From a virus: a DNA stretch of 37,376 nt. The stretch lies in the IMG/VR virus record IMGVR_UViG_3300044490_000021, positions 1 through 37,376 of that record, one strand, 5' to 3'. The notes below the pieces were generated by a model, which did not search any database, was not told the DNA's origin, and saw only the letters and a program-made list of their open reading frames with translations. A program made the translations under genes and the position numbers. Below, in pieces: positions 1-16,865 of the stretch (the stretch's first letter is position 1; every line of letters starts with the position of its first letter).

Positions 1-2
1 AA

Positions 3-170: not shown

Positions 171-176
171 GTAGTA

Positions 177-719: not shown

Positions 720-967
720 TGGAAATAGTTCCTGGGTACACATGGAATGGCGAGAGGCTTGTGAGGAATCTGGAAGCCAGTATCCAGAGAGTGTCGTTCA
801 ATGGGCAGAGTGTAACGATACACACTAGCAGTGATGCTAGAACGTGCCAGATGTGTGGCAATCAAATTAAGAAAGGTGATAAGTATGGTGCAGGACGCAA
901 GGTTGCATACTGTATCCACTGTCTTACACCTTCATTAAAGAACATGGAGGAAGAAGAAAGTGTGTAG
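719..967 (+). CDS. Small zinc-ribbon protein, 82 aa
   Basis: The protein has an N-terminal part of about 40 residues without recognisable motifs, then a zinc ribbon with C43-x2-C46 and C65-x2-C68 (CQMCGNQI and YCIHC), and an acidic tail. It could be a nucleic-acid or protein adaptor; the sequence does not show which. Its ATG overlaps the previous stop (TAATG), with GGAAGGAG about five bases upstream, so the two genes are probably translationally coupled. Its last codons contain the GGAGG ribosome binding site and the GTG start of the following 32-codon gene. The function is not identified. Confidence 0.75.
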   Translation: MEIVPGYTWNGERLVRNLEASIQRVSFNGQSVTIHTSSDARTCQMCGNQIKKGDKYGAGRKVAYCIHCLTPSLKNMEEEESV

Positions 968-1058
968 AAACTGTGGAAGTAAAAGCATGAAATGGAATCC
1001 TCGTTTGGCAAGATGGGAATGTGTTTCTTGCGGTCACGCACAGCGTTCCCAAAGTTAG
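960..1058 (+). CDS. Very short zinc-ribbon protein, 32 aa
   Basis: GTG at 960 opens a 32-codon frame ending in TAG at 1056-1058. The peptide contains C2-x2-C5 (CRNCGS) and C21-x2-C24 (CVSCGH) spaced as a minimal rubredoxin/zinc-ribbon fold, with Trp and Arg between. GGAGG at 946-950 lies nine bases before the start, better than the chance level for such a small frame. It overlaps the end of the 719-967 gene by eight bases in another frame. The four correctly spaced cysteines plus the ribosome binding site are the evidence; there is no homology search behind this call. It could be a tiny regulator or a zinc adaptor of the transcription or replication machinery. Confidence 0.65.
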   Translation: MCRNCGSKSMKWNPRLARWECVSCGHAQRSQS

Positions 1059-1101
1059 CCGGTGGGGGCCGGATGGGCAGCCAGACCGATGGCAGACCGG
1101 C
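1058..1101. repeat. Inverted and direct repeats upstream of promoter (possible operator)
   Basis: GCCGGT at 1058-1063 is matched by ACCGGC at 1096-1101. Between them CAGACCG occurs twice, at 1082-1088 and 1093-1099, eleven bases apart, about one helical turn. The cluster lies about 33-76 bases upstream of the -35 hexamer, where a regulator could bind. No protein partner can be assigned from sequence. Confidence 0.35.
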
Positions 1102-1133
1102 GGGTGACTTTTGAAAATTGGTCCCCAAAGGTA

Positions 1134-1162
1134 TTGACAAAGGTGCCTATCTGTGCTATAAT
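1134..1162 (+). promoter_or_regulatory. Consensus sigma70-type promoter
   Basis: TTGACA at 1134-1139 and TATAAT at 1157-1162 are both perfect hexamers, separated by exactly 17 bases. Transcription should start near 1169-1171, giving a leader of about 120 bases before the ATG at 1291. This is the only perfect promoter I found on either strand. It suggests that the host RNA polymerase reads this operon strongly, probably early in infection. Confidence 0.9.
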
Positions 1163-1168
1163 GTAGGT

Positions 1169-1270
1169 GTGCCTGGGGGATACCCGCGCCCGACCCATCC
1201 CCCTGCCATTGGACGCCCCGTGGGGGTGTCTATCAGAATCTGTAGCAATAAAATGTTGCTACTGTTTTTT
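1169..1270 (+). ncRNA. Structured leader RNA ending in intrinsic-terminator-like hairpin
   Basis: Between the promoter and the 1291 gene lie three potential hairpins. The first is GGGGGAT (1175-1181) with ATCCCCC (1197-1203). The second is GACGCCCC (1212-1219) with GGGGTGTC (1223-1230), using one G-U pair. The third is GTAGCAA (1242-1248) with TTGCTAC (1256-1262), followed by TG and six T. The last fits a weak rho-independent terminator that would release an RNA of about 100 nt, or act as an attenuator just before the ribosome binding site at 1277-1283. Whether it is a free small RNA or a cis-regulatory leader cannot be decided from sequence. I recognised no known riboswitch core. Confidence 0.5.
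1242..1270 (+). terminator. Intrinsic terminator / attenuator in leader
   Basis: A perfect 7-bp stem (1242-1248 / 1256-1262) with a 7-base loop, followed by T at 1265-1270. The stem is short and only partly GC, so termination would probably be partial. It ends about 20 bases before the 1291 start codon, a layout typical of attenuation. Confidence 0.5.
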
Positions 1271-1290
1271 CTCGCGAAAGGAGAAATGAA

Positions 1291-1659
1291 ATGCAAGTCG
1301 CTAATGCAGGTAATGTGGATCGCAATAAGAAGTTGAGCCCCGTAGCCGCTGGAATGTTGATGGGCAAGTCCGGTTCACACATCAGTAAATTGCAGGCTGA
1401 TGAGATTCTTCCTCGCAATCTTACTGTTGGTGCTGTTCTGGATTATATTGCGACTGCTGATACTGGTCGCCGCCGAAGCAGCAAGAATGATGGTGAGCGC
1501 ATGTGGTACTTGACATGCGACGAGGCTACTGCTCAGCAGATCATCAATACGTTCCGTGTACGTATTGATGATCCGCGCGAACTTGCGAAGCAGCGTGCAG
1601 AAGAGGCGAAGGAGAAGGCTCGCAAGGATCTGGAGGAACTCGGCCTCGTTCCTGCGTAA
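1291..1659 (+). CDS. Small HTH-like DNA-binding protein, 122 aa
   Basis: Residues 16-52 read as a helix-turn-helix of the phage Nu1/excisionase kind: LSPVAAGMLMGKSGSHISKL, then a LTVGAVLDYI helix. The C-terminal 30 residues are a charged helix rich in Glu, Lys and Ala. The ATG at 1291 follows AAAGGAG (1277-1283) by seven bases; an overlapping ATG at 1286 is in another frame. It is the first gene after the consensus promoter and leader, so it is probably made early and abundantly. Its codons (many CGC, CGT, GCT) differ from its neighbours and resemble those of the 6929 SSB-like gene. It could be a repressor or activator of the phage, and is a candidate binder of the dispersed motif, but that link is only inference. 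Small terminase-type function is an alternative. Confidence 0.6.
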   Translation: MQVANAGNVDRNKKLSPVAAGMLMGKSGSHISKLQADEILPRNLTVGAVLDYIATADTGRRRSSKNDGERMWYLTCDEATAQQIINTFRVRIDDPRELAKQRAEEAKEKARKDLEELGLVPA

Positions 1660-1674
1660 AACATAAGCAGTAGA

Positions 1675-1702
1675 GAAACTACTACAATGGCGTAGTAGTT
1701 TC
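1675..1702. terminator. Perfect 11-bp inverted repeat after the HTH gene
   Basis: GAAACTACTAC (1675-1685) and GTAGTAGTTTC (1692-1702) pair perfectly around a 6-base loop. It begins 16 bases after the TAA of the 1291 gene. It lacks a following T-run, so it is either a weak terminator, an RNA 3'-end stabiliser, or an operator for a dimeric protein. A C/A-rich stretch follows up to the ribosome binding site of the next gene (AAAGGAG, 1757-1763). Confidence 0.5.
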
Positions 1703-1774
1703 CCGCATACACACCACACACACGCCCCACGCCCCACGTGGCGATTTCATTCTACAGAAAGGAGTATTCCAAAT

Positions 1775-2719
1775 ATGCCAGATGTTTCTACTACGTCCGA
1801 AAAGAAACCCCCTGTGCACTCCGGCGGGCCAGACCTGTGTATGTTGCGTCAGTGGTTTGGATCGTTTACTAAAGAGGAATTAGTAAACATGCTTGCCACT
1901 ATAATGTATACTGGAATACCTCCGGTGATTCCAGACGCAGCCTTGATAAAAGAAGTAAAGGTTTCTCGTGGACGTGGTCGCCCAAAGGGTAGCACAGTAG
2001 TTGGACTGACTAGTAATCTGCTGAAAGTGCTAGGTAAATACTACCCCATGCCAGCAGAAGAACTCAATCTTTCCATAATTGCAAAGGAAATGAATGTAGC
2101 AGTAAGCACACTTGTACGCTACCGAGAACACGTGGAGTATCTACCACCATACTTGCAATCATACTTCTTGGACATTCCTAACGTGCACATAGCGCCACGC
2201 TTTCCTCTCATCTGGAGAGCGGTGCTGGACATACACAATCACATGTTGATTGCAGCAGAACCTGGACGCATCATTCCTATCTATGCACTACATGCTAGAT
2301 TGTGGGGAGCAAAGGCATTGAGCATTTCAGTTCGTACTTTGGGGGATCACAAACTAGCGAGAGCAGAACAGCAGGAATTGAATCGTGTGTTTGATCCTAA
2401 TCTACTTAGCGTATTCGAACACGCAGGTTGGCCAAAGATACAAGTTCCTTCTGTACCTGGTGGTGCTGGTTGTGCAGATGGATGTCACATAGTTGAAGCA
2501 TATATTCACGGGCATGTACCAAAGACAGTGGGTGGATGGCGAGAACTACTGTGTATGTCCAGTAAACTTCCGAAAGGTGTGGTCTTGGACACGCAAGATA
2601 AGAAGGACTTTATTGCTCCAAGAACACTAAAGGATGTATACCAGCAGATCCTGTCACCAGTCTGGAATGAAGGAGAGGACATAATTGGCTCGCCAAGTCA
2701 ACCATTACCTACAGGTTAA
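1775..2719 (+). CDS. AT-hook and HTH-containing protein, 314 aa
   Basis: I do not recognise the family. Residues 64-73 contain an AT-hook-like core, SRGRGRPKGS, which in known proteins binds the minor groove of AT-rich DNA. Residues about 96-118 (ELNLSIIAKEMNVAVSTLVRY) fit a helix-turn-helix. The C-terminal half is about 200 residues without a clear motif and contains a CADGCH stretch. The start is ATG with AAAGGAG upstream. Copy 2 of the dispersed motif encodes residues 9-16 near the N-terminus (KKPPVHS), which is likely an unstructured tail. The gene lies directly before the RuvC-like gene, overlapping it by 35 bases. A role in DNA binding, perhaps at the replication origin, is inference. 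Confidence 0.65.
   Translation: MPDVSTTSEKKPPVHSGGPDLCMLRQWFGSFTKEELVNMLATIMYTGIPPVIPDAALIKEVKVSRGRGRPKGSTVVGLTSNLLKVLGKYYPMPAEELNLSIIAKEMNVAVSTLVRYREHVEYLPPYLQSYFLDIPNVHIAPRFPLIWRAVLDIHNHMLIAAEPGRIIPIYALHARLWGAKALSISVRTLGDHKLARAEQQELNRVFDPNLLSVFEHAGWPKIQVPSVPGGAGCADGCHIVEAYIHGHVPKTVGGWRELLCMSSKLPKGVVLDTQDKKDFIAPRTLKDVYQQILSPVWNEGEDIIGSPSQPLPTG
1799..1819 (-). repeat. Dispersed motif copy 2 (C-form on + strand)
   Basis: GAAAAGAAA then CCCCCTGTGCAC; the reverse complement is GTGCACAGGGGG then TTTCTTTTC. It lies inside the 1775 gene in opposite orientation and is read as KKPPVH. The 21 bases are identical to copy 13 inside the giant gene. Confidence 0.8.
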
Positions 2720-3212
2720 GATAAAATTTCCCGGAAACTTTTTGGATAAGTTTCCTATCCTGGGAATAGATCCGGGAAAAACAATTGGCATGTGCTATGC
2801 CACTGCAGAGATAGATGAGGAGACACACGCGGGCATCGTGTATCTATCTCTGTTTGATATTTCTTGGCCATCTGACGTGGATGTTCTGCAAGGAATGTTC
2901 AAACGTCAGGACAAACGACCAAGCACTGTGGTGATCGAGTGCTTTCGTTTGTTTCCTCACAAAGCAACAGCCTTAATCGGTGACGATTTCATTCCGTCAC
3001 AGGTCATAGGCTTCTTGCGTATTCAGTGTATGGATTACAGCACGTTGTTTGTGGAACAGATGTCTTCCATTAAGGCTGCATGGAAGGCACCAGCACTTGC
3101 GGCTTTTGGAATTGATCTCAAAGGCGTACCACATCATTCAAGAGACGCATTAATCCACGTAGTTCACTACTTAGTAGAGGAGGCAAAGCGTGCGCGAAAA
3201 GAAAAAACTTAA
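2685..3212 (+). CDS. RuvC-like (RNase H-fold) nuclease
   Basis: The 175-residue protein has the RNase H-fold resolvase signature: GIDPGKTIG at 27-35 with catalytic D29, VVIECF at 82-87 with E85, and SRDALIH at 152-158 with D154. This is the arrangement of RuvC/YqgF-like Holliday junction resolvases, which cut branched DNA using two metal ions; phages use such enzymes to debranch replicating DNA before packaging. The TTG start at 2685 is supported by AGGAGAGG at 2671-2678. This start makes the gene overlap the previous one by 35 bases. It overlaps the SNF2 helicase gene by 23 bases. A later start would still keep the catalytic core. Confidence 0.82.
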   Translation: MARQVNHYLQVKIKFPGNFLDKFPILGIDPGKTIGMCYATAEIDEETHAGIVYLSLFDISWPSDVDVLQGMFKRQDKRPSTVVIECFRLFPHKATALIGDDFIPSQVIGFLRIQCMDYSTLFVEQMSSIKAAWKAPALAAFGIDLKGVPHHSRDALIHVVHYLVEEAKRARKEKT

Positions 3213-4599
3213 AGAAATGCGAGCAGTTCGTGATAAGGGACATGCAAAGTCGCCTTGGCCCTACCAGATGAATGGTGCACGTTTTCTGCAAACGAGAGGC
3301 GGTGCTCTGCTAGGAGATCAAGTAGGTCTAGGTAAGACTCTCCAAGCAATCATTGCTGTGCAGAAATGTGGACTTCCCAATGTGCTCTTGGTAGTTCCGA
3401 ATAGCCACAAGAAGTGGTGGATTCAGGAGATCATAGCGCAAGAGCGCATTGCGTTTGATGTCCAGGATGTGAAGATTGAGTTACTAGGCAATCTTCCAGT
3501 CGTGCAGATTATCTTTTCTGGTGGGAAGAAACGTGTGTGGATAGTTGCCCATCATGAAGCGCTACGCATAAACAGTCCATACTTCAAAGTACTGGACGAT
3601 GTTCAGTGGGGAACAGTTATTGTAGATGAAGTCCACAAGATTTCCAACCACGAAACGCAAAGGGCAAAAGGACTTAACGCATTAAAGAGTTGGCATAGGT
3701 GGGGACTGACAGGTTCACCGATTGCCGACAAGCCTGACAGTTTGTGGGGACTGCTACATTGGATTGCACCTGACAAGTTCACCAACAAGTGGGCATTCAT
3801 CAAGGAACACTTCTATGTGTACGAAACTTGGGGAGGAAATCTCAAACTAGGTGCATGTATAAATCCAGCAAAGTTGCAGTTAGTAACTGCCCCATATCTA
3901 CTGGTCAGGAAACTGGAAGACGTGGGCATAGAACTTCCGGAGATTACACCAGTAGAAGATCGACCTGTGCCTTTGGAGTTGATGCCACTCCAACAGAAAT
4001 ATTATGACAAGGTAGAGAATGAAGCACGCATTGACTTGATGACGCAACTAGGGATCGTGGATGTGGATCCCGAAGATTACGAACTCTATCTTGATCTGGA
4101 TGACGATGGTGCGAAGTGGATTACTAATGCACTATCTCGATTCACTGCATGTCATCGTGCAGCATCATTGCCACCTACCGACGACAACGCAAAGATGGAG
4201 TGGCTAAGAGAATACGTAGAGAATGGCGGTGAGCCTGCCGTAATCTTTACAAGATACGTAGCCACCAAGGATGCAATCATTGAGAAACTTATGGACTGGC
4301 TGCCTAAAGAAGAAGCATCAAAGTACATCGTGGGTACTTATGCCTACATGTCTCATGGCCATAACCTTCAGCATTTACATGTGCTTATTCAATGGGACTT
4401 GTCGTGGTCTAGAATTGAATATGAACAGAGCATAGGTCGTGTCCATAGACAAGGACAACTCCACCCTGTTCAAGCGTATGAACTACAATGTGAGAATACT
4501 GTGGATATGTACATCGCTGAGTTAGTACACAACAAACAAGCAACCGCTGAAATGTTGTTGAAGTGGTTGAGAAAGGAGGAAGAATATGTGGACCAGTAA
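3190..4599 (+). CDS. SNF2-family DEAD/DEAH-type helicase
   Basis: A superfamily 2 ATPase of 469 residues. Motif I is GDQVGLGKT at 42-50, motif II is DEVH at 146-149, motif III includes LTGSP, and motif VI is SIGRVHRQGQ with R417 and R420. The order and spacing fit a compact phage SNF2 protein, which translocates on duplex DNA and helps remodel replication or recombination intermediates. The start is GTG at 3190, with GAGGAGG six bases upstream inside the RuvC-like gene. Its end overlaps the small zinc protein that starts at 4586. Its place between a resolvase and a Cas4-like nuclease suggests work in recombination-dependent replication. Confidence 0.87.
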   Translation: MREKKKLKEMRAVRDKGHAKSPWPYQMNGARFLQTRGGALLGDQVGLGKTLQAIIAVQKCGLPNVLLVVPNSHKKWWIQEIIAQERIAFDVQDVKIELLGNLPVVQIIFSGGKKRVWIVAHHEALRINSPYFKVLDDVQWGTVIVDEVHKISNHETQRAKGLNALKSWHRWGLTGSPIADKPDSLWGLLHWIAPDKFTNKWAFIKEHFYVYETWGGNLKLGACINPAKLQLVTAPYLLVRKLEDVGIELPEITPVEDRPVPLELMPLQQKYYDKVENEARIDLMTQLGIVDVDPEDYELYLDLDDDGAKWITNALSRFTACHRAASLPPTDDNAKMEWLREYVENGGEPAVIFTRYVATKDAIIEKLMDWLPKEEASKYIVGTYAYMSHGHNLQHLHVLIQWDLSWSRIEYEQSIGRVHRQGQLHPVQAYELQCENTVDMYIAELVHNKQATAEMLLKWLRKEEEYVDQ

Positions 4600-4750
4600 G
4601 CCTAAGCAAAAGTACACACGTCCTTCTGTCTCTTACGAAACGCGCAAGTGCAGTTTGTGTAAGGAGCCTATTGCTTCCGGAGTTCCACATTATGTGGTTG
4701 AAGGAGAAGACGAAGAAACCAGATACTATCACAAGGAGTGCCTGCTATGA
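4586..4750 (+). CDS. Small treble-clef zinc protein, 54 aa
   Basis: ATG at 4586 opens 54 codons ending in TGA at 4748-4750. The peptide has C22-x2-C25 and H49-x2-C52 (CSLC and YHKEC), a treble-clef or PARP-finger-like zinc site. GAAAGGAGGA lies just upstream. It overlaps the SNF2 gene by 14 bases and the next gene by ATGA, so it sits in a tightly coupled operon. The basic N-terminus (KPKQKYTRP) would suit nucleic-acid binding. It resembles the 719 and 12714 zinc proteins only in fold type. The function is unknown. Confidence 0.7.
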   Translation: MWTSKPKQKYTRPSVSYETRKCSLCKEPIASGVPHYVVEGEDEETRYYHKECLL

Positions 4751-5829
4751 ATGAGATCCACACCAGTAGCATTTCAGGATTCAATCATTGTCCACGTGCG
4801 TGGTATCTTGTAGATAGAGATATGGGTCTAGGATATAGGCCCAAACTACAGGATGTAAAACTTCAGTTCGGCACAATGATGCACCGAGCATTGGAGTTAC
4901 ACTATCTTGGTGGTATGCCACTTAAGGCATCGTGGGCAAGTGCTGTTCAAGATGAGATCCTGGCAGCAACCAACAATGGACAGAAGCCTTTGATGTTGGA
5001 ACAACGGGCTCAATTAAATCTTCAAGCTGCATCAGGACTTGGTGTAATCAAAGGCTATGAATCTTGGATTGCATCTTCAGGCAACGATCCATACTCTGAC
5101 TACAATCTAAGGTTCCTGGACATGGAGCGTGCATTCGTATTCCAACCAGATGGCTGTAGTTTCAAAGTCGGAGGAAAGTGGGACGGAGTTGTCGAATCCA
5201 GATCGGATGGTGAAACGTACATCTTTGAAACAAAGACATGTGCCAGTGTAGATTCTACACTACGTGGGATTATGTGGGATCCTCAGCCCCAGTTGTACGC
5301 ATGGGCTGCAAGCAACATTCTAGGTAAGCAGATACAAGGCGTTGTCTATAACCTGGTAACCAGCATCAATCCATTCGACATACCATTGTTGAAGAACGGA
5401 CTTCCTAGCAAAGGAGTAAAGTCTACAGTCAAGTCAACCTATGAAGTTTACTTGATGACTTTGCTTCAGCGTGCAGAAGCCACGGGGAATAGTGTTGAGA
5501 CTGTGCTTGCAAACTATGCAGAGGAACTTGCTTACATGAGAACTAGTTCTCCAAGATTGTACGTACGTCACCTGCATAGAGTGAGCGCAGCAATGCAAGA
5601 GCAAACAGCAAAGCACGTCACACGATTTTCTGAACTTATGGACAGAGCCTTGAATAAGGCAGCAGATGGAAACTACCCATTGCCTTACAAGTCACGGTTC
5701 ACGTGTCCAAATTGCAGAGTACGTATGGTGTGTTTAGCAATGGACGAGGGAGCGGACTGGCGGGAACTGTTGGAACGCGACTTCGAAAAAGTATCTAGAA
5801 GAGAGGAGGATGAAGACAGTGACGCTTAG
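4747..5829 (+). CDS. Cas4/RecB-like PD-(D/E)XK exonuclease with Fe-S cluster
   Basis: The protein has the Cas4/AddB plan. C15 sits in NHCPRAWYL near the N-terminus and three cysteines close the protein (C320, C323 and C329 in CPNCRVRMVC), together a 4Fe-4S site. The nuclease core is H46 (GTMMHRALE), D146 (GGKWDGVV) and E161-x-K163 (FETKT). Such enzymes resect DNA ends; beside an annealing ATPase and SSB this is probably the recombination exonuclease. I chose ATG at 4747 over an upstream in-frame GTG at 4738, because AAGGAG at 4733-4738 is correctly spaced only for 4747, and it makes an ATGA overlap. The length is 360 residues. No CRISPR array accompanies it. Confidence 0.85.
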   Translation: MNEIHTSSISGFNHCPRAWYLVDRDMGLGYRPKLQDVKLQFGTMMHRALELHYLGGMPLKASWASAVQDEILAATNNGQKPLMLEQRAQLNLQAASGLGVIKGYESWIASSGNDPYSDYNLRFLDMERAFVFQPDGCSFKVGGKWDGVVESRSDGETYIFETKTCASVDSTLRGIMWDPQPQLYAWAASNILGKQIQGVVYNLVTSINPFDIPLLKNGLPSKGVKSTVKSTYEVYLMTLLQRAEATGNSVETVLANYAEELAYMRTSSPRLYVRHLHRVSAAMQEQTAKHVTRFSELMDRALNKAADGNYPLPYKSRFTCPNCRVRMVCLAMDEGADWRELLERDFEKVSRREEDEDSDA

Positions 5830-6114: not shown

Positions 6115-6912
6115 GTGCTGATACCAGACTACAGTGATGATGGCAGTATCCTTCTTAGGATGATGGTGTATGGTGTTCCTGGTGCAGGGAAAACCACATT
6201 CGCATCAACGTTTGATGACGACCCCCGTACCTCACGTGTGCTGATTGTTGACGTTGGTGGTAACAGCATAAGCATACGTAAGAACTCACCTAAGCCGCTA
6301 GTCCTAATCCCGGAATCATTGAATGACATAGACAGAATATTCGCGTTCTGTCTACGGCAGAAACCAGACGATCCAATACGTGCGGCATTGGGAATTGACA
6401 GTGATGTCAGAATTAACACAGTAGTTATCGACACGCTTTCCGAAGTCCAACGAATGGCAATCCACGAGGAACGTGGAGTAGCGTATGCAACGGATTCTGC
6501 ATATCAGGCTGGAGTACCTTTGTCAATACGTAACACACCAACAATGCGAATTCAGGATTGGGGTGGCATCTTGCAGAAGATGACTACGCTGGCCTCAATG
6601 TTCTACAAACTTCCTATGCATGTAATCATTACATGCCAGGAGAAGTTAGAGATTGAAGAAGAGGATGGCAAGATCATATCCTCTACAGCACGCCCGTTTC
6701 TGCAAGGTGGATCCGCAGATGCAGTACCTGCATGGGCAACGTTAATTGGAAGAATAACACGTCGTCCTGTACCAGGTCGTGCATCTGTTCCATTCATGCA
6801 GTTCACAAACACAACCAGATGGTATGGCAAGAATCAAGTATCATTGACCTTGCCTAACGAAATCCAAGATCCAACTGCGTCTAAAATTCTAGATGCAGTC
6901 ATTGCAGGTTAA
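6115..6912 (+). CDS. Sak4-like RecA-fold ATPase (single-strand annealing protein)
   Basis: The protein has a Walker A at 20-28 (GVPGAGKTT, K26), a Walker B-like VVIDTLSE with D106, and a later ITCQEKLEIEE stretch. This is the compact RecA-like core of the phage AAA_24/Sak4 group, known to promote single-strand annealing together with a cognate SSB. The next gene is indeed an SSB-like protein, and the Cas4-like nuclease is upstream, completing an exonuclease-annealer-SSB set. The start is GTG at 6115, after AAAGGAGG. Its 265 residues are a normal length. A general P-loop ATPase without recombinase activity cannot be excluded from sequence alone. Confidence 0.8.
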   Translation: MLIPDYSDDGSILLRMMVYGVPGAGKTTFASTFDDDPRTSRVLIVDVGGNSISIRKNSPKPLVLIPESLNDIDRIFAFCLRQKPDDPIRAALGIDSDVRINTVVIDTLSEVQRMAIHEERGVAYATDSAYQAGVPLSIRNTPTMRIQDWGGILQKMTTLASMFYKLPMHVIITCQEKLEIEEEDGKIISSTARPFLQGGSADAVPAWATLIGRITRRPVPGRASVPFMQFTNTTRWYGKNQVSLTLPNEIQDPTASKILDAVIAG

Positions 6913-6928
6913 CGAAAGGAGAACTATC

Positions 6929-7378
6929 ATGGCAGTTTTTACACCCGCAGGCGAGAATCCCGTGCAGGCTCAGGTTGGCAATCCTACGTTTGGTGGTAGC
7001 CCGACAGAGACCAAGAAACGAATGCTTGATTTTGCTAGCGCGCGACGCATTCCTTCGCCTGGTCAGTACCTTGTTGTCGTAAAGTCCTACACTGAGAAGA
7101 CAAGTCAAAAGGGAAATGACTACATTCAAGTTTCGTTTGCCATCGAGCAGCCTGAGGAGTACAACATGTTGACGTTGTATGACCGGCTGATGATGGTTGG
7201 TGGTGGCCTTGCGCGTACTATGAATGCGTTGATCGCACTTGGATTCGAGGTAACGGATAACTTCGAGTTCGATCCCAAGATGTTGGTTGGATGTCGCGCA
7301 TGGGTTGAGGTAATCAACCAGCCTGATGATAACGGCGTAATGCGTGCAAACATTTCCCGTTATCTTGGCAACGGCTAA
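6929..7378 (+). CDS. SSB-like (DUF669-type) single-stranded DNA-binding protein
   Basis: The protein has 149 residues, with a central beta-rich part: PGQYLVVVKSYTEKTSQKGN, then YIQVSFAI and, later, LVGCRAWVEVINQ. This strand pattern is that of the DUF669-type proteins found next to Sak4 recombinases and taken as phage SSBs. The ATG at 6929 follows AAAGGAG (6915-6921) by seven bases; the longer frame from 6893 would overlap the ATPase and lacks a ribosome binding site. Codon choice (GCG, CGC, CGT) suggests high expression, as expected for an SSB. No acidic C-terminal tip typical of bacterial SSB is present; it ends YLGNG. Confidence 0.7.
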   Translation: MAVFTPAGENPVQAQVGNPTFGGSPTETKKRMLDFASARRIPSPGQYLVVVKSYTEKTSQKGNDYIQVSFAIEQPEEYNMLTLYDRLMMVGGGLARTMNALIALGFEVTDNFEFDPKMLVGCRAWVEVINQPDDNGVMRANISRYLGNG

Positions 7379-7391: not shown

Positions 7392-9782
7392 GTGTCGAAT
7401 GTTGCAAGTCCTAACTTCGACTTCTTCACGGCAGTCTTTCGACACGCTCCAGCAAACGCTAATACGCTTGTAAGGTGGGGTCCAGTTCAACCAGTGTTTT
7501 TCGTTCCTCTCTCCAGTCTGTTTGATGGAAGTGTTTCGGCTGGAGAGGGGAACGTGTTTTTTGGACCTGCTCTACGAAAGAGTGAGGACTCCACAAAAAG
7601 CGGCGTGCTCGGAGCGAGTGCAGCATGGTTGGATTTCGATAACGAAGAAGGATCGAATGCAATCGCGCTGCTTCCTCCAAGCATTATGGTTGCTAGCGGT
7701 GGCCCTGGGAAGTTCCATTACTATTGGTTAATGGATAGGTTTGTTAGTCCAGACCAATTGGAAAGAATCAACAAGGCCATCGCTACGCACCATAATGATC
7801 GAGGAGGAACGTGGGACTGTACTAGAATACTCAGAGTTCCTGGTAGTCAGAATCTGAAATACAATCCAGCAAGAATTGCTGAGATTAAGATGTTCGTTCC
7901 GCAGAGAGTGTATCCACCAGAAGAACTAGAGAAACTACAGGCATTCGATCCTGCAGTTCTAAGAGTTCCGGATGGACGCTCTCGTAGCGAACGAGATTTT
8001 CGTTTGGCAAAACTGCTGGCAAGTTGGGGAATGTCCGATGCATCTATCGAAGTTTCTCTACGCACGTATTCAGATAAGGCCAAAGAGGAATGGAGAACAT
8101 ATCTACCCAGAACCATCACAAGAGCGCGAGAGAGTCTTACACGTTCAGGTAAAACTCTGTCGCGTGAAGACAAGAATCTAGATGTAGCACCGAGGAAAGT
8201 CAGACACCTAGCCAACTTCTATGCAATGCCAGTAGCCTCGCTTGTTTCTTCTACTGGTTCCGATGAAGGAATAATGATGGAAGTTGGATGGGGAGAAGGC
8301 AAGCGTAGACTGCGTGCTGTTCAGAGTGACTTCGATAGCAGAAAGGCGGTGAACACATGGTTAACCAGGAATGGATTGCAGACTAGAATGTGGTTAGGAA
8401 ACGACAAGGACGCATCAGACTTCTGGGTTGCTTGTTGTGACATCATCCCAGATGAAACTGTGCTACTTGTACCACAGGCAGGGCGCCACACTTACAAGAA
8501 TGCTACTATGTTTGTGTATGGAAAAGAAAACGCCCTGTGCACTCCAGCCTGTAATAGATTGCCAGTGTTGTGGTCATCGCCAGTATCTGAACAAAGAGAA
8601 GTGTTTCTTCCCGAAACTCCAGAACTCTTGCCACAAGAAGATGCCCTTCACCTTATCAACACCACGCTAAAACTTAACGTCCCCGAAGTAATAATTCCTG
8701 CACTTGGTTGGGTAATGGCCACACCAATCAAGCCTCTAATCGAAACCTGCTACATGAGGTTTCCGTTACTGTTGCTCTTTGGGCAAAGAGGCAGTGGTAA
8801 AACTTCACTACTACGTGATGGCTTATTACCATTGATCGGTGGAGTTACTCCGCTAGGTTCGGACGTTACCCGCTTTGCACTACTGTCTGCACTCTCTTCC
8901 TACAATGCCATACCTGTTTGGCTTGGAGAGTTTCGTGCATCACTTCCAAACACTGACGAGTTGCAAACGTATCTGCGTATGGCATACGATGGTGCGAGAG
9001 AAGAGCGTGGACGCAGCAATCAAACAGTTGCTGTCTACGAAATGACAGCACCAGTCGTAGTAGATGGGGAAACCATGTTTCCAGATTCTGCTGTTAGAGA
9101 ACGGACTCTGCCAGTCAGACTTATTCAGGCTAACATCCTGAGATCTGGATACACGGTAGCAATGAAAACTCTCAGAGAGATCCATCAACTACAGCCTCTA
9201 TTCGCACGGGACTATCTGCAACATACCCTGTCTACCACGAAAGATGACGTTTCCCGCTGGATCGCACAGGGCGAAATTTTTTTCAGTGAGAGTATTCCAC
9301 AATCCAGGTTAGTAAGTGCTGCAACCACAGCATACATAGGGATCAAGTTGTTGCAGACTTACGTTCCAGTGGATCTTACTGATAAAGAGATAGTCAGTGC
9401 TATCCTCAAAACGATGGACAATGTCTACGTTCACGGACTTGGTGTGCGTACGCCAGTAGAACAGATGTTGGAGATTCTGTCGCACGCATTTCGCGCTGGC
9501 CAAACGTGGGCAATCCAGGCTTGCGAGTACAAAGAAGGCGTGTTGTGGTTTAATGTCACAACCTGTCACCACTGGATTCGTAGATTCTGGTTTGGATTAC
9601 CAGAGAAGGAAATGCTCATGCCTCAGATTGACGAGCGTGTGGGCATCTACATAGAAACTCCAAAGGTGAAGGATGGCGGCATTTACTACGGCCTTAATAT
9701 TGCAAAGGCGCAGGAGTTAGGATTAGACGTTCCAACTCCAATATCACTCACCATCAAAAGGAAAGGAGAGGTCACTCTGTGA
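7392..9782 (+). CDS. AEP-type primase fused to helicase-like ATPase
   Basis: This 796-residue protein has a RepB-like archaeo-eukaryotic primase at the N-terminus: metal-binding D81-x-D83 (AAWLDFDN), SGGPGKFHYYW at 102-112 with H109, and TRILRVPGSQNLKY at 144-157. The C-terminal half has a Walker A, GQRGSGKTS at 464-472, and a Walker B-like VWLGEF, as in phage primase-helicases. It should lay primers and unwind duplex for the polymerase encoded next, whose GTG overlaps this stop. The GTG start at 7392 follows AGGGGGAGAG. Two copies of the dispersed motif lie inside the gene (at 8521 and 9264), in opposite orientations. Confidence 0.82.
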   Translation: MSNVASPNFDFFTAVFRHAPANANTLVRWGPVQPVFFVPLSSLFDGSVSAGEGNVFFGPALRKSEDSTKSGVLGASAAWLDFDNEEGSNAIALLPPSIMVASGGPGKFHYYWLMDRFVSPDQLERINKAIATHHNDRGGTWDCTRILRVPGSQNLKYNPARIAEIKMFVPQRVYPPEELEKLQAFDPAVLRVPDGRSRSERDFRLAKLLASWGMSDASIEVSLRTYSDKAKEEWRTYLPRTITRARESLTRSGKTLSREDKNLDVAPRKVRHLANFYAMPVASLVSSTGSDEGIMMEVGWGEGKRRLRAVQSDFDSRKAVNTWLTRNGLQTRMWLGNDKDASDFWVACCDIIPDETVLLVPQAGRHTYKNATMFVYGKENALCTPACNRLPVLWSSPVSEQREVFLPETPELLPQEDALHLINTTLKLNVPEVIIPALGWVMATPIKPLIETCYMRFPLLLLFGQRGSGKTSLLRDGLLPLIGGVTPLGSDVTRFALLSALSSYNAIPVWLGEFRASLPNTDELQTYLRMAYDGAREERGRSNQTVAVYEMTAPVVVDGETMFPDSAVRERTLPVRLIQANILRSGYTVAMKTLREIHQLQPLFARDYLQHTLSTTKDDVSRWIAQGEIFFSESIPQSRLVSAATTAYIGIKLLQTYVPVDLTDKEIVSAILKTMDNVYVHGLGVRTPVEQMLEILSHAFRAGQTWAIQACEYKEGVLWFNVTTCHHWIRRFWFGLPEKEMLMPQIDERVGIYIETPKVKDGGIYYGLNIAKAQELGLDVPTPISLTIKRKGEVTL
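8521..8542 (-). repeat. Dispersed motif copy 3 (C-form on + strand)
   Basis: GAAAAGAAAA then CGCCCTGTGCAC, inside the primase-helicase gene upstream of its Walker A, read as KENALCT. It shares the GAAAAGAAA extension with copies 2 and 13. Confidence 0.8.
9264..9283 (+). repeat. Dispersed motif copy 4 (G-form)
   Basis: GCACAGGGCG, AAA, then seven T, inside the primase-helicase gene downstream of the ATPase motifs. It is read as AQGEIFF in the gene's own direction. Confidence 0.8.
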
Positions 9783-12211
9783 ACGAAGCGCTAGAGGATG
9801 AGTTGTACGAAGAGGCTACAGTAAAACCGAAACGCCCATATGCCCTTTGTCACGAATGCCCTCTGTCCGATCCTTCTCATACATACGTACCTACATACTT
9901 TCCGGCGACGGAGCCGGAGTATGTAGTTATCGGAGAAGGTCCAGGATATGAGGAAGCCAGAGTAGGCAAACCATTCGTTGGCGAATCAGGCCGCCTATTA
10001 CGTGCAGTATTCAAGATGAATAACAAGGATCTTGATAACTGCCTAGTCACTAACTCTACAGGCTGCCTTCCCAAGAATGCTACTAAAGCACAACTTGAAC
10101 GTGCTGTTTGGTGTTGCAAACCAGCACTTGATGCAGACTTGAGATTGGGTTCGCCACGAGCGCCGAGAATATTACTTGGCGCACACGCGCACAAGTCTGC
10201 GGGCATGGAAGATTACTACCACTGGGAGAGAAAAGGCGAACAAGATCCACCAAGGATGCGCGATTACATATCGCTTCCACATCCTGCATACATACTTCGT
10301 AGTCCTGGCATGGGAGTTCATTTCGTAAACGGAATGTACAAGGCATTGTCTGCTCCATCTTACGATGATGGTGATCCAGAAATGTCATTGCACCACGATG
10401 AAAAAAATCTTCCCCCTGTGCACAGCGAGGTTTTCGAGCGAGCACGGGACATCGTGATAGACTTAGAAACTACTGGCCTTTACTGGATTGAGGACATTCC
10501 ACTGTGGGTAGGTATTGGGTACAGAAATAGGATTGGTGAGATTGAAACCATAATCCTTGACGGCAAAGCCATGATGGAAAACGAAGCCATGATGGAATGG
10601 ATTGCAGATTTCGTGGACACCTACAAGGAGAAGATCGGTGGTTTCAATATCAAGTTCGATATGCTTTTCCTCTCCCAATACTATGAGGTAGGCCTCAATA
10701 GTTTCAGTTGGGATGCAATGCTGGAAGTGAATGCACTGAACGAATATTGGTTCCGTGACTTGAAGAACCTGGCTACTTACTTCTGTAATGCAGGATCTTA
10801 CGAAAAGGAACTATCGAGGTATGTGGAAAGGAAGTCGGATGGATACAAAGACGTTCCAGAGGATGTGCTTACTAGGTATCTATCACGTGACTTGAAGTAC
10901 ACACTTGAAGTACACGAAGCGCTAAGGAACTGGTTGGGAGAAAGGCATGAGCGTTTCAATCAGCAATTTCAAATTCCAGTATGTAGGGAATTGGCAGTAA
11001 TGGAGTTTGTTGGTGTGGCTGTTGACGTAGACAAACTCCGTGAACTCGAAGAAGCATTGATCAAGGAAGCAGAGAGCATCAAGGAAAGTATCCAAAGGCT
11101 ATCACAAGATATAATAAGTAATCCAAACAGTCCAAAGCAAGTGGCTGCCTACCTGTATGACACACTGCATGCGCCAGCATGTGCTATCTATGGATATGGT
11201 GTACGAAGCACAGCAGAGCCAGTCCTTGAAGCATTACCTGAAAGTTTCAAGAACATGCCAGTGATAAGGAAGATACTGGAATTCCGTGGGATCAGTAAGA
11301 TACTTTCATCCTACGTACTTAATGTATATCCTCGTGTCTACTGGGACTCGCTTAGTAGGTGTCACCGTGTTCATCCTGACTGGGATCAGACTGCTGCTAT
11401 TACAGGCAGAATGTCTGCCCACCATCCAGCCGTGCAAACTATTCCACGTGCTGGAGAAGAGGGAACATGGACATCTAAGATTCGTGCTTGCTACACAGCA
11501 GCACCAGATAATGTGCTATGTAGCGTGGACGGAAGCCAGTGGGAACTTCGTGTTGCAGCAGCAGAAAGTGGGGATGAGTTTCTACTTAATGCATATGCAA
11601 ACGGGAAGGATATACATGGTGAAGTTACATCAGCGATGTTCGGCCCTGGATGGAATAAGGAACAGAGAGCCAACACCAAGCGGTTTGTATTCTCTTGGAT
11701 ATACGGTGGGTCTGAGCAATCTAGTGCAGCTGTGTTTGAACTTCCGAGAGATACAATCCGCATATATGTCGACCGATTCAACCAGTCTTTGCATGGACTG
11801 GTTGAATACAGAAAGCGTGTGCACGAGGAAGGTAAAACGCGCGGCTACATCGAAACCAGACTAGGACGTCGCTGTCACTTCCTGCTTATAACTTCTGCTA
11901 ACGAAGACGCAGTACGGAAAGGAACATTAAACTATCCAATACAAGGTGCAGCAAGCGATCTAACTTGTCTTGCTCTTGTGGACTGCGCTCCAAAACTCAG
12001 AAGGATTGGAGCGCGAGTGGTGATGTTGGTACATGATAGCATTGTCTTTGAAGCACCGAAATCTCTAGCAGAGAAGGCATGCAAGATCGTTGCGGATTCC
12101 TTGGAGCGTTGCTCCGCCAAAGTCTATCCAGAACTTCCGTGGGTAGCAGAAGCAGAAGTTGGTCCTAACTGGGCAGAGTCGGAGAAGGTGAAATTGTGCG
12201 GGGACAAATAA
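9779..12211 (+). CDS. Uracil-DNA glycosylase fused to family A DNA polymerase
   Basis: The 810-residue protein joins two enzymes. Residues 20-195 are a family 4-like Fe-S uracil-DNA glycosylase: C24, C27, C96 and C112 for the cluster, GEGPGYEEA and GKPFVGESG at 52-71, and LPHPAYILR at 167-174. Residues 225-390 are a 3'-5' exonuclease with D228 and E230 (IDLETTGL), FNIKFD and YLSRD. The polymerase follows: D584 in motif A (DGSQWELR), K634 in motif B (NTKRFVFSWIYGG), and HDS with D753 in motif C, where HDE is more usual. The GTG start follows AAAGGAGAGG and overlaps the primase stop. Motif copy 5 lies at 207-215, in the linker between glycosylase and exonuclease. The fusion would couple uracil removal to synthesis; this is inference. 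Confidence 0.88.
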   Translation: MNEALEDELYEEATVKPKRPYALCHECPLSDPSHTYVPTYFPATEPEYVVIGEGPGYEEARVGKPFVGESGRLLRAVFKMNNKDLDNCLVTNSTGCLPKNATKAQLERAVWCCKPALDADLRLGSPRAPRILLGAHAHKSAGMEDYYHWERKGEQDPPRMRDYISLPHPAYILRSPGMGVHFVNGMYKALSAPSYDDGDPEMSLHHDEKNLPPVHSEVFERARDIVIDLETTGLYWIEDIPLWVGIGYRNRIGEIETIILDGKAMMENEAMMEWIADFVDTYKEKIGGFNIKFDMLFLSQYYEVGLNSFSWDAMLEVNALNEYWFRDLKNLATYFCNAGSYEKELSRYVERKSDGYKDVPEDVLTRYLSRDLKYTLEVHEALRNWLGERHERFNQQFQIPVCRELAVMEFVGVAVDVDKLRELEEALIKEAESIKESIQRLSQDIISNPNSPKQVAAYLYDTLHAPACAIYGYGVRSTAEPVLEALPESFKNMPVIRKILEFRGISKILSSYVLNVYPRVYWDSLSRCHRVHPDWDQTAAITGRMSAHHPAVQTIPRAGEEGTWTSKIRACYTAAPDNVLCSVDGSQWELRVAAAESGDEFLLNAYANGKDIHGEVTSAMFGPGWNKEQRANTKRFVFSWIYGGSEQSSAAVFELPRDTIRIYVDRFNQSLHGLVEYRKRVHEEGKTRGYIETRLGRRCHFLLITSANEDAVRKGTLNYPIQGAASDLTCLALVDCAPKLRRIGARVVMLVHDSIVFEAPKSLAEKACKIVADSLERCSAKVYPELPWVAEAEVGPNWAESEKVKLCGDK
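10401..10423 (-). repeat. Dispersed motif copy 5 (C-form on + strand)
   Basis: Seven A, TCTT, then CCCCCTGTGCAC. It is read as KNLPPVH in the linker between the glycosylase and exonuclease domains of the polymerase. Confidence 0.8.
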
Positions 12212-12735
12212 GCTTCCACATCATACCAGACATCCGTGCTGGTCTCAATGCAAGAAACGAATTAGGGGAAGAACTGTGGTCCCTCATTCGTATGCAGTAC
12301 CTGAAAGAAAACCCGAAGTGTAGTTACTGTGATGCGGATGGAGAAGAACTGCATGAGGAGTGGCGATTCGATGTTGCAAAAACCCAAGCAACACAGGTAC
12401 TCCTCGACGTGCGTATCTTGTGCAAGAAGTGCCATCTTGCTACTCACATACTTCGTTCTTCTGCTGCGCTTTCGGAGCGGGAGTATCAAGAAATTATCGA
12501 GCATATCATGCATGTAAACGGGTGGTCCGCAACACGTATAGATAAAGAAATCAAAGACGCTCTGGATTGCTACTACTGGTTAAAGAATCAACTGAAAGGA
12601 GTAACCACATGGAAACTTGATTACGCTTTGCTGATTCCTAAGATCGCTATAGCCAGGACTTTCGTTTCGGCAATAAGAAAGTGCATGCGCCACAATCCCC
12701 CAAGGAAAGTAGTATGGCCAAAGAAAAAGAAGTAG
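12196..12735 (+). CDS. HNH-like zinc protein, 179 aa
   Basis: C42-x2-C45 (CSYC), then H53 (ELHEEW) and C76-x2-C79-H80-x3-H84 (CKKCHLATH) form a treble-clef zinc site like that of HNH endonucleases. The canonical His-Asn-His triplet is incomplete, so catalysis is uncertain. The C-terminal half is helical, with a basic end (WPKKKK). The GTG start at 12196 overlaps the polymerase gene by 16 bases, with GGAGAAGG upstream. It may be a DNA-processing or binding factor of the replication module. A homing HNH origin is possible, but it sits in frame within the operon without disturbing neighbours. Confidence 0.65.
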   Translation: MRGQISFHIIPDIRAGLNARNELGEELWSLIRMQYLKENPKCSYCDADGEELHEEWRFDVAKTQATQVLLDVRILCKKCHLATHILRSSAALSEREYQEIIEHIMHVNGWSATRIDKEIKDALDCYYWLKNQLKGVTTWKLDYALLIPKIAIARTFVSAIRKCMRHNPPRKVVWPKKKK

Positions 12736-12923
12736 ACTATCTTTGGTGTGCTAAGTGCAATCGCACACGTCCTGTAGTTAATACCAAGGACGGATCGAAG
12801 TGCTCAATCTGTGGTTCCCTTCTAGGGAGAAAGGATTCGAGATATGCTAAATATGGCAAACCAAGCACGTATAGTGGATGTGGCAGCATACATGGCAAGC
12901 AGAGGAAAGTTCGCTATCCCTAA
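12714..12923 (+). CDS. Small zinc-ribbon protein, 69 aa
   Basis: C12-x2-C15 (WCAKC) and C30-x2-C33 (CSIC) define a zinc ribbon in the first 35 residues; the rest is basic (RYAKYGK, GKQRKVRYP). ATG at 12714 has AAGGAAAG upstream, which a longer in-frame start at 12681 lacks. The last 80 bases overlap the MazG-like gene in another frame, an unusually long overlap here. The tail may therefore be shaped by the second frame, or one of the two starts is wrong. The ribbon itself lies outside the overlap and looks genuine. The function is unknown. Confidence 0.6.
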   Translation: MAKEKEVDYLWCAKCNRTRPVVNTKDGSKCSICGSLLGRKDSRYAKYGKPSTYSGCGSIHGKQRKVRYP

Positions 12924-13377
12924 TGCGGATGAAGCAGCCAAGTTTATGGTAACGGAAGTAGCGGAAGTGATAGACGTAATCATGCGGAAAGATCCAAAAT
13001 TCACGCGCAACAATCCGAACAAAGACGACTGGAAATACGTAGACGAACTAGGAAAGGAACTGGCGGATGTGGTTTACATGGCGTTCCTGTGTGCGAACGC
13101 AGAAGGAATTGATCTTGCTGCGTACCTGAATAGCCAGATAGTAAGACGCGCACAAAAGCATCTTGGCAATGATGGTGCTATGGTGGCCGGATCGCTACTG
13201 GAAGCAGACACGCTGAGGATTGCAGAAGATAAATCCTTTATCTCTTATCTGCTTACGCAACCCAGGTGGATGAACCCAGCGGATGAGGACTCACTAAGGC
13301 TAAAAGGAATAATGCAGCGGTTTCTTTCTTACGCACTGAAGGATCCAGCAGATGCCACAGCATCCGACGAATGTTAA
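12844..13377 (+). CDS. MazG-like nucleotide pyrophosphohydrolase
   Basis: The all-alpha NTP pyrophosphatase signature is visible: E38-x2-E41 (VTEVAEVID) and E72-x2-D75 (KELADVVY), the metal ligands of MazG-like enzymes, in the first 110 residues. These enzymes hydrolyse nucleoside triphosphates to monophosphates and either clean the nucleotide pool or lower alarmone levels during phage growth. The remaining 70 residues have no clear motif. ATG at 12844 follows AAAGGA by eight bases; a second ATG at 12853 is also possible. It is followed, with overlap, by a second likely nucleotide-metabolism protein. The substrate cannot be told from sequence. Confidence 0.75.
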   Translation: MLNMANQARIVDVAAYMASRGKFAIPNADEAAKFMVTEVAEVIDVIMRKDPKFTRNNPNKDDWKYVDELGKELADVVYMAFLCANAEGIDLAAYLNSQIVRRAQKHLGNDGAMVAGSLLEADTLRIAEDKSFISYLLTQPRWMNPADEDSLRLKGIMQRFLSYALKDPADATASDEC

Positions 13378-13771
13378 CTGGTCTCTCTTAATGGGAAAGA
13401 GTGGGGACATGTCCACAGAGAAAGCGTTAGTTTCTAACTTTCTCTATGTGATGTATCCACTCTTCTGCAAGAAGCATCATTCCTACGGACCACACAATAT
13501 ATCAGTGTTCGGAGAACAAGGTGTGTATATACGAATGTGGGACAAGATGCAACGCATTCGTAGATACATGAATGATGAAGATGTTGCCAACCTTCTTAAG
13601 GACGAGAAGATCGAAGACACACTAATGGACATCGCAATCTATGCAATGATTGCAATTCTGGTACGCCACGGTGACTGGCCCAAGTATCCATCTTCACTAC
13701 GTATGCGCCTTGAGAATTGGATTTTACAAACTCGATTGCTCAGGCGCTTGTATCTCTTGATGAAGGCGTAA
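13352..13771 (+). CDS. Nmad1/DUF1599-like protein
   Basis: The 139-residue helical protein contains HHSYGPHNISVFG, MWDKMQRIRRYM and KIEDTLMDIAIYAMIAI. These match in order the DYG, DKxxRL and DtlxDxanYa stretches of the DUF1599 / Nucleotide modification associated domain 1 family. That family is related to MazG helices and is predicted to act in phage nucleotide modification. I chose ATG at 13352 because GAAGGA lies about eight bases upstream; ATG at 13409 is an alternative that would keep the domain. It is the last gene of the + strand operon, and its stop abuts the convergent terminator. Confidence 0.65.
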   Translation: MPQHPTNVNWSLLMGKSGDMSTEKALVSNFLYVMYPLFCKKHHSYGPHNISVFGEQGVYIRMWDKMQRIRRYMNDEDVANLLKDEKIEDTLMDIAIYAMIAILVRHGDWPKYPSSLRMRLENWILQTRLLRRLYLLMKA

Positions 13772-15774: not shown

Positions 15775-16432
15775 TGCCCATGACCTCCTTTACTAGATTT
15801 TGTAGTTGCCCCATGATGACAATGATGTCACCAATAGCAGTGTATACCTGCTGTAGTTCCTCACCCTCCGGTGGCTCCGGTGGCGGTGGAAAATCCGGTG
15901 GTGGTGTAGGTGGTTCAGGTTGCTCCGGTGGCGGTGTAGGTGGTACCACACCAGGTTCTAGTAATTGAAATGCTACATAGTAGGAATGATGGCCAATCGT
16001 ATTTCCAGTTCCTTCATCTGGATGATACGTGTGCATTCCAGATACTATGTCGCTAACTGTATCTTTTACTAGAACGTGAACGACCTGCCCCCCAAACATT
16101 GCCAGGTTTCCGCCCGCCTCATACAACGGCTTGTCTAGTATTACAGATGTTGGTGCTGGTTCTGTTTTTGTTCTCCCCTTCCAGTCCCACGTAATTCCAT
16201 AGTTTCCTCGAAGTTGTTTTCCATCCTTATCTACAAGATCGATGTATACGTTGTGCTTGCCCATGTTATCCTGAGGCGCCAAGTGCAGCACGCCTAGGCA
16301 CAGGGCGAATTTTTTTCCAGGCTGGGGATTTACTTCCGCAATGGCCACGTCATATTTCAGTGCTTCGTTCTTGCGTCCACCCTCTTTGATCCATTTGTCT
16401 ATCCAGTGTTGGCGTTCATTCTGTCCGAACAA
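15587..16432 (-). CDS. Virion or envelope protein with proline-rich linker, 281 aa
   Basis: Residues 1-165 form a domain I do not recognise, followed by a Pro/Glu-rich linker at about 168-196 (PPTPPPEQPEPPTPPP), then a helix (AIGDIIVIMGQLQNLVKEV) and a Ser/Thr-rich tail. The linker points to a multi-domain structural or surface protein. The start is TTG at 16432, supported by AAAGGAGG six bases away; no ATG fits. The Ser/Thr-rich tail, from about residue 219, overlaps the 15478 gene in another frame, so the true end may differ. Copy 8 of the dispersed motif encodes residues 40-45 (KKFALC). Confidence 0.65.
   Translation of the reverse strand: MFGQNERQHWIDKWIKEGGRKNEALKYDVAIAEVNPQPGKKFALCLGVLHLAPQDNMGKHNVYIDLVDKDGKQLRGNYGITWDWKGRTKTEPAPTSVILDKPLYEAGGNLAMFGGQVVHVLVKDTVSDIVSGMHTYHPDEGTGNTIGHHSYYVAFQLLEPGVVPPTPPPEQPEPPTPPPDFPPPPEPPEGEELQQVYTAIGDIIVIMGQLQNLVKEVMGNATASHISAVAGRAETFRPEDSSPTAGDTDTVYNSNPTSAATEPWTGKYSIGELNSGNPTGN
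16298..16316 (+). repeat. Dispersed motif copy 8 (G-form on + strand)
   Basis: GCACAGGGCG, AA, then seven T, inside the - strand 15587 gene, so the coding strand carries the C-form (read as KKFALC). Confidence 0.8.
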
Positions 16433-16865
16433 AGACTACCTCCTTTCCTAAAGTGTGTAGTATTTCTCTCCACGACAAACCTTCCTCGGCCAACGACAGT
16501 ATCTCTTCCTGCGTCTGTCTGTTATACTGTGCGTGTTGACAGTTAGGATCATCGCCTTTGATGATAGTACCGATACTCCAACGTATCGCCGCGTCAGTGC
16601 GGCTATGACGCTTCGACGGGACATACGCCTGGTCTCTGCGACCTATACTGTAGATATGAAACTCACTGTCCCGTGGGTGCTGCAATCTACAGTATGCGTA
16701 GGTACGGCAAAAAACGCCCTGTGCGATCAGCGCGTCCATGTCTGCATCGTAAGACATTTCTGCTGGAAGAACTCCCATCAAGTATCTTTCTACTGACATA
16801 TTGATGTCTCTTCCATCGGACAGTCTGACCGTTATCAGGATCGTAACTGCCAAGAAAGCGTTCAT
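16416..16865 (-). CDS. SpoIID/LytB-like domain protein
   Basis: Residues 14-60 match the SpoIID core: VRLSDG, SVERYLMGVLPAEMS with E36 at the position of the catalytic Glu, then ALIAQGVFCRTYA, the counterpart of the usual ALKAQAVAARTYA. SpoIID proteins are peptidoglycan lytic transglycosylases acting on denuded glycan. At 149 residues it is shorter than bacterial members. The last 45 residues, with a QTQEEILSLAEEGLSWREIL helix, may be a separate binding part. It overlaps the 16862 gene by ATGA and has no ribosome binding site, so it is probably coupled. Possible roles are host-wall degradation at entry or at lysis. Motif copy 9 falls in the conserved AQ helix. Confidence 0.65.
   Translation of the reverse strand: MNAFLAVTILITVRLSDGRDINMSVERYLMGVLPAEMSYDADMDALIAQGVFCRTYAYCRLQHPRDSEFHIYSIGRRDQAYVPSKRHSRTDAAIRWSIGTIIKGDDPNCQHAQYNRQTQEEILSLAEEGLSWREILHTLGKEVVFVRTE
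16709..16724 (-). repeat. Dispersed motif copy 9 (C-form on + strand)
   Basis: Six A then CGCCCTGTGC. On the coding - strand it is GCACAGGGCG then six T, read as AQGVF within the conserved helix of the SpoIID-like domain. Confidence 0.8.

Follow-up and report, generated by a model that had tools for sequence, protein, structure and literature searches.

What does a uracil-DNA glycosylase (UDG) fold do at the N terminus of a phage DNA polymerase, and does it still remove uracil? The question is raised by one gene of the window, by which we mean the whole 37,376-nucleotide stretch that was analysed (IMG/VR record IMGVR_UViG_3300044490_000021). The open reading frame spans exactly positions 9779 to 12211 on the + strand without an internal stop codon, and its Pfam matches, all above their cut-offs, follow the order UDG, exonuclease and polymerase from the N to the C terminus. 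The features of the gene are listed here, where Tth denotes the Thermus thermophilus UDG (PDB 1ui0).

9779..12211, + strand: UDG, 3'-5' exonuclease and family A DNA polymerase in one protein of 810 amino acids, GTG start codon
9848..10351, + strand: N-terminal UDG domain, residues 24-191 (PF03167 and domain model)
9848..9859, + strand: first putative cluster pair, C24-x-x-C27, invariant in alignments A2 and A6
9932..9946, + strand: motif A, GEGPG, with the predicted catalytic E53 (alignment to Tth)
9974..9976, + strand: F66 of GKPF, aligned to Tth F54
10052..10054, + strand: N92, aligned to Tth N80
10064..10117, + strand: second putative cluster pair, C96 ... C113 (C112 is also a cysteine), from the alignment
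10280..10285, + strand: motif B, H168-P169, with H168 aligned to Tth H155
10439..10930, + strand: 3'-5' exonuclease domain, residues 221-384 (PF01612, DNA_pol_A_exo1, E 4.8e-7)
11030..12178, + strand: family A polymerase domain, residues 418-800 (PF00476, DNA_pol_A, E 8.3e-76)

The frame shares 4 bases with the upstream gene and 16 with the downstream one, an arrangement that argues against a chimeric assembly at this place. An AlphaFold2 model of the whole protein, built with 32 sequences, has a mean pLDDT of 87.9 and a pTM of 0.87, and its polymerase part resembles Pol I structures (Z 37.9 to Mycobacterium smegmatis Pol1, 6vdd). In alignments, the catalytic residues of the exonuclease (D228, E230, D294, Y367 and D371) and those of the polymerase (D584, K634, F638, H752 and D753) are in place; by sequence, the active sites of all three domains are intact. 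The protein scores 102.2 bits against the model for the aminoadenine polymerase DpoZ (NF038380), below the cut-off of 500 bits, and is not assigned to that group.

The polymerase gene is the last of a replication module that is common to its relatives and that includes an SNF2 helicase, an exonuclease, Sak4, a single-strand DNA-binding protein and a primase. The locus counts given below come from jackhmmer searches with the window proteins over four rounds, among which some matches may be distant, and cover the 92 UDG-polymerase loci of at least 12 kb.

3190..4599, + strand: SNF2-type helicase (PF00176), 62/92 loci
4738..5829, + strand: PD-(D/E)XK exonuclease (PF12705, phrog_1218), 78/92 loci
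6115..6912, + strand: Sak4-like ATPase (PF13479, phrog_124), 80/92 loci
6893..7378, + strand: single-strand DNA-binding protein (phrog_378), 82/92 loci
7392..9782, + strand: primase, possibly with helicase (phrog_10514, weak RepB_primase match), 52/92 loci
12196..12735, + strand: HNH endonuclease adjoining the polymerase gene (phrog_5200)
12844..13377, + strand: MazG-like protein, marginal (PF03819, 22.6 bits against a threshold of 22.0)
13352..13771, + strand: Nmad1-like protein (DUF1599), below cut-off (PF07659, 18.3 against 25 bits)

We read the 810 amino acid protein as the replicase of a tailed phage, a family A polymerase of the known UDG-exonuclease-polymerase type. The MazG and HNH proteins of the window were matched in none of the 92 loci by jackhmmer. 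Upstream of the helicase gene, at 2685-3212 on the + strand, lies a gene for a 175 amino acid phrog_1981 protein carrying the stretch GIDPGKTIG, which we take to be typical of RuvC-like nucleases; it has relatives in 10 of 11 loci of the RSPG clade described below and in none of the 81 others.

A sister contig without the polymerase gene, IMGVR_UViG_3300044489_000054 (G070; 43,338 bases), is identical to the window over 21887-35880 and 34887-37376 and matches it at 99.7% over 1-5492; loci L153, L154 and L155 belong to the same observation. G070 runs on from the right end of the window back to its left end, and is apparently a second contig of the same phage. This suggests that the map, circular or permuted, measures about 59.7 kb (37,376 bases and 22,355 new ones), provided that the two contigs represent one phage. 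Among 10 larger proteins of the extra segment, Pfam named only a terminase (PF03237). Adjoining the head genes of the window is a frame of 3588 residues (26563-37329, - strand) for a putative, very large virion protein; it has no Pfam match and a single short match in PHROG (phrog_9880, residues 2684-2790, E 1.4e-12). A SpoIID-domain protein (PF08486, E 2.7e-12) encoded among the tail genes at 16416-16865 on the - strand is perhaps a cell-wall enzyme.

The N-terminal domain has the fold of the UDG superfamily, as judged from PF03167 (residues 39-178, E 9.1e-18, 65.1 bits against a cut-off of 24.3) and from a model of the domain. It was folded and structure-searched alone; a search with the full-length model returns a list filled by Klenow-type chains, so the absence of UDG structures from that list is uninformative. 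The isolated domain model (pLDDT 89.2) is nearest to two family 4 enzymes, 4zbx (Z 19.0) and 1ui0 (Z 18.6), and the ranking descends from family 4 and UdgX structures (Z 17-19) through PDB 9QHS (13.8) to MUG/TDG enzymes at about 12 (MUG 12.2). Identity to the stand-alone enzymes 1ui0 and 4zbx is about 24%. The alignment to 1ui0 places E53, G54, F66, N92 and H168 on Tth E41, G42, F54, N80 and H155, which we take to be the pocket residues of UDG. The family 4 motifs are found (GEGPG, GKPF, VTN and HPAYILR in the alignment to 1ui0, and likewise in that to 4zbx except for motif B), and we assume for the residues of GE(G/A)PG, GxPF, TN and HPxxxLR the roles that they have in family 4 UDGs.

The cysteines C24, C27, C96 and C113 match the family 4 spacing C-x2-C ... 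C-x(about 16)-C in alignments A2, A6 and A7. They are invariant in the six fused domains of A2 and in the 32 sequences of A6, whose members were picked for at least three of the four cysteines, and are putative ligands of a 4Fe-4S cluster. The NCBIfam family 4 models give scores below their cut-offs (TIGR00758, 55.6 against 125.3 bits; NF040953, 51.8 against 250 bits), and for this reason we call the domain family-4-type rather than filing it as a member of family 4. The hallmark of UdgX is a KRRIH loop. This loop is absent from the 810 amino acid protein, and the UdgX model TIGR03914 yields 40.6 bits against a cut-off of 189.95, so the domain is not assigned to UdgX. An earlier note on this DNA, made from the letters alone, had claimed a fusion of UDG, 3'-5' exonuclease and family A polymerase that retains all four cluster cysteines and both glycosylase motifs of a family 4-like enzyme. 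Three Pfam domains in one frame, the aligned cysteines, E53 in GEGPG and H168 in HP on 1ui0, and the structure search bear out each of these points.

Fusions of this kind are already in print. They are described for SPO1 and Shbh1, where the UDG domain of the polymerase may aid processivity (extracts of PMC5135824), for PaBG gp205 and throughout its group of 11 members, which carry an N-terminal UDG, a 3'-5' exonuclease and a polymerase in one chain (extracts of PMC7412058), and for iF6_137 (extracts of PMC10054541). The window protein is a very divergent further example of this published architecture. Close relatives of the whole protein or of Sak4 were sought in viral contigs and none were found. 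A tblastn search with the whole protein matched 3769 of 50,697 phage records, and in 20 of these one place covers 80% or more of the query; the UDG part alone matched 33 records, 18 in features named DNA polymerase and 4 in features named uracil-DNA glycosylase.

There are 138 frames with both domains in our survey, drawn from viral-contig scans (79 loci and 57 loci) with named-phage loci added. Of these, 135 were counted, representing 123 distinct sequences; three frames open at the 5' end were excluded, as was L005, which duplicates the window. The counts exclude 20 polymerase frames without a UDG match, several of which are truncated or are second pieces of split polymerases. Because the searches were seeded with UDG-bearing polymerases, the frequencies describe the sample rather than all phages. 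In three loci (L007, L010 and L152, from Bacillus BSP7, Weizmannia Youna2 and MW202554) a UDG-bearing polymerase is split between two frames, perhaps by introns. The order UDG, exonuclease, polymerase recurs in independent isolates and contigs, so the fusion is neither artefact nor chance, and the simple assembly artefact that the earlier note had considered is contradicted.

Both cysteine pairs are kept in 120 of the 135 rows (109 of 123 distinct sequences), and the catalytic Glu and His in 72 rows (68 distinct). Cysteines and catalytic pair occur together in 64 of the 123 distinct relatives. The cysteines are kept without the pair in 52 of 135 rows, or 45 distinct sequences, 33 of which lack both residues. 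Four intact cysteines alone therefore do not show activity, since 45 of 109 four-cysteine sequences have lost the Glu and/or the His. This weakens the step from cysteines to activity by which the window's domain had been called active rather than decayed. The claim itself is nevertheless likely to hold for the window copy, where a working glycosylase is to be expected because the cluster cysteines and the catalytic site are both kept.

On a tree that uses only the polymerase domain (142 rows, 400 columns), the altered catalytic forms group into clades, with scattered single cases in addition. The largest clade without the pair reads SRSPG where intact sequences have GE(A)PG, and NPA where they have HPA, such that Glu is replaced by Arg and His by Asn; we call it the RSPG clade (L111, L114, L116-L118, L120-L127, L129-L131, L133, L135, L139-L141, L143 and L145), and all four cysteines are present in 17 of its 17 distinct sequences. 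A DxPN clade that includes Serbin, P744 and Lebethron has GDxPN, lacks GxPF and keeps the four cysteines in 7 of 7 distinct sequences. A KxP clade, with KxP and SP/AP motifs, keeps them in 11 of 11. The window itself sits on an end branch of 1.3 and joins L150, L136 and others weakly, the program flagging a meeting of long branches, and we are unsure of its placement.

The UDG domain of the RSPG clade diverges about as its polymerase does. The ratio of UDG to polymerase divergence (log-identity) is 1.09 in this clade, 1.03 among intact sequences, 1.22 in the DxPN clade and 1.77 in the KxP clade. Median pN/pS in the RSPG clade is 0.25 for the UDG domain and 0.21 for the polymerase, taken over 26 pairs of which many are saturated at synonymous sites. 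By these comparisons the domain is under purifying selection and as constrained as the polymerase. By parsimony, the catalytic state has changed 10 times and the cysteine state 9 times, and an independent-pairs test, with 6 pairs, is not significant. The argument thus comes from entire clades in which the cysteines persist and not from a smaller number of losses.

Our best explanation, to which we give somewhat better than even odds, is that in this polymerase lineage the Fe-S UDG fold serves permanently as an arm that holds DNA, and that in the window copy it is still a working glycosylase. The fold would hold DNA near the polymerase, either structurally or for processivity. This proposed role would account for the survival of cysteines and fold where Glu and His have been replaced; the cluster and fold stay constrained after that replacement, which argues that the domain has a use besides cutting uracil. 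The simplest such use is to hold DNA at the polymerase, and the Fe-S fold probably has this second role; vaccinia UDG, which doubles as a repair enzyme and a processivity factor (extracts of PMC10253040), is a worked precedent for it, although processivity is drawn from analogy. In the window copy the domain is probably also an active glycosylase, given its retained residues. It would excise uracil met by the polymerase, whether from a deaminated template or as dUMP in the product, and the resulting abasic site would be left to host repair.

We propose more tentatively, at less than even odds, a statement about the large phage replicase lineage as a whole, in which the polymerase permanently carries the Fe-S UDG fold as an arm for holding DNA or reading bases, the RSPG...N, DxPN and KxP clades have switched catalysis off with the cluster kept, and the window enzyme keeps both jobs. 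A dead site is read here from motifs, and the RSPG...N form could be a glycosylase with another target; the domain of that clade could accordingly be either a DNA-holding pseudo-glycosylase or such an enzyme. The KxP clade counts against a DNA-holding arm, as its domain evolves faster (the ratio of 1.77) and some of its kin (L054, L055, L056, L058, L063 and L064) have lost the cysteines and much of the domain. The fusion is known, and the uncommon point is the family-wide split between a kept Fe-S fold and a lost catalytic pair. An intact copy, an RSPG copy and a copy without the domain would make a clean comparison for the role of the glycosylase fold inside a replicase, a question that the literature has posed for SPO1-type polymerases and that poxvirus work has addressed. 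On the lineage-wide reading, phages would have come to employ a glycosylase in replication within one chain, where poxviruses did so by means of a separate subunit.

The strongest competitor, which we nevertheless consider unlikely, is that replication-coupled uracil repair is the sole job of the domain and that relatives without the catalytic pair are simply decaying. The window copy, with E53, F66, N92, H168 and the cysteines intact, accords with this, as do the roughly half of distinct relatives that keep both cysteines and pair, and the authors of the PaBG study link the fusion to accurate replication (extracts of PMC7412058). However, decay does not explain why every distinct RSPG-clade sequence has four cysteines, nor the uniform replacement by Arg and Asn, nor the polymerase-like constraint on the domain.

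Perhaps the domain recognises a template base, for example in modified DNA, rather than removing it, with the site adjusted in each lineage; we regard this as improbable. PF00303 (thymidylate synthase/hydroxymethylase, TS) is matched in 28 of 50 and 12 of 30 records of relatives, or 40 of 80 in all, and by a hand tally in 37 of 51 records of one half of the tree against 3 of 29 elsewhere. QueC, which we take to stand for the 7-deazaguanine pathway in these phages, occurs in 17 of 49 relative records and in all 12 searched members of the clade of Brevundimonas phage StAshley. PDB 9QHS, the polymerase of Thermus phage phiLo (residues 34-1175 of phiLo_158), is titled 'phiLo family-A DNA polymerase with modified template'; a literature search for a paper on this entry or polymerase found none. 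These points favour a base reader. Against it, neither PF00303 nor PF00692 (dUTPase) is matched in the window or G070, QueC (PF06508) is not matched in the window, and 0 of 5 RSPG-clade records have a QueC or thymidylate-synthase match. In the TS-rich half of the tree, moreover, the TS-like gene accompanies lost sites (23 of 27 records) and intact sites (14 of 24; hand tally) alike, and because many intact TS-negative records sit in one subclade we draw no conclusion on base modification and catalytic loss.

By the same searches, base modification is not supported for the window's phage, and neither is the suggestion of the earlier note that the phage polices or alters its nucleotide content. 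Of the two neighbours named there, the MazG-like gene matches at the threshold and the Nmad1-like gene below its cut-off. Since many relatives carry base-modification genes, the idea suits the family at large more than this particular phage. QueC-bearing UDG-polymerase loci are L002, L007, L009, L010, L094, L100-L102, L105, L108, L110, L112, L137, L138 and L144, of which L007, L009 and L010 come in addition to the 12 of the one clade, and a divergent TS-like protein is found in L001, L003, L006, L008 and most loci of the 77-row tree half. At the place of E. coli TS Asn177 there is Asp in 60 of 67 TS-like frames, from phages with lost and with intact sites alike, which presumably marks dCMP-type enzymes. 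In four named phages the TS-like gene adjoins one for a protein of 256-277 amino acids, two scanned copies of which have no Pfam match.

Marginally less probable again is a domain that is catalytically silent despite its motifs and purely structural. The NCBIfam scores below cut-off would fit this, as would residues 147-150 and 157-159, where the full-length model is poorly defined. However, each pocket residue examined is that of the intact family, and GE(A/G)PGYEEA, GxPF, TN and HPA are common to the window protein and L093, an intact relative with an overall identity of about 30%. The remaining alternative, an assembly or annotation artefact, has a negligible chance of being right in view of one uninterrupted frame with overlapping neighbours and an architecture repeated in many independent records.

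Among known systems, the phiLo polymerase is like the window protein in being a family A enzyme with an N-terminal UDG fold (Z 13.8 for that domain) and, by alignment, four cysteines and E...H. It differs in having 1175 rather than 810 amino acids, in its distant branch and in having been solved, according to its title, with a modified template. The SPO1-type polymerases of Bacillus phages (Goe16 and Shbh1) have the identical domain order, but Goe16 (L004) lacks the cluster cysteines, has the motif ENPF and carries M for the F and S for the N. Serratia phage Serbin, Yersinia phage P744 and Pseudomonas phage Lebethron share the architecture, the four cysteines and the replication module, and differ in their GDxPN motif A, in lacking GxPF and the Asn at N92, and in adjoining TS-like and deaminase genes. 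In extracts of the published description (PMC7412058), Pseudomonas phage PaBG gp205 and the Lupandier group have the same chain of UDG, exonuclease and polymerase, although these phages are jumbo myoviruses. The stand-alone family 4 UDGs of T. thermophilus (1ui0) and S. tokodaii (4zbx) share the fold and the pocket residues but are separate enzymes. Poxvirus D4/E4 is a family 1 UDG, and the poxvirus polymerase belongs to family B. According to extracts of PMC10253040, D4/E4 places a UDG fold on the replicative polymerase in both a glycosylase and a processivity role; the likeness to the window protein would be one of role only; the poxvirus UDG is a separate subunit.
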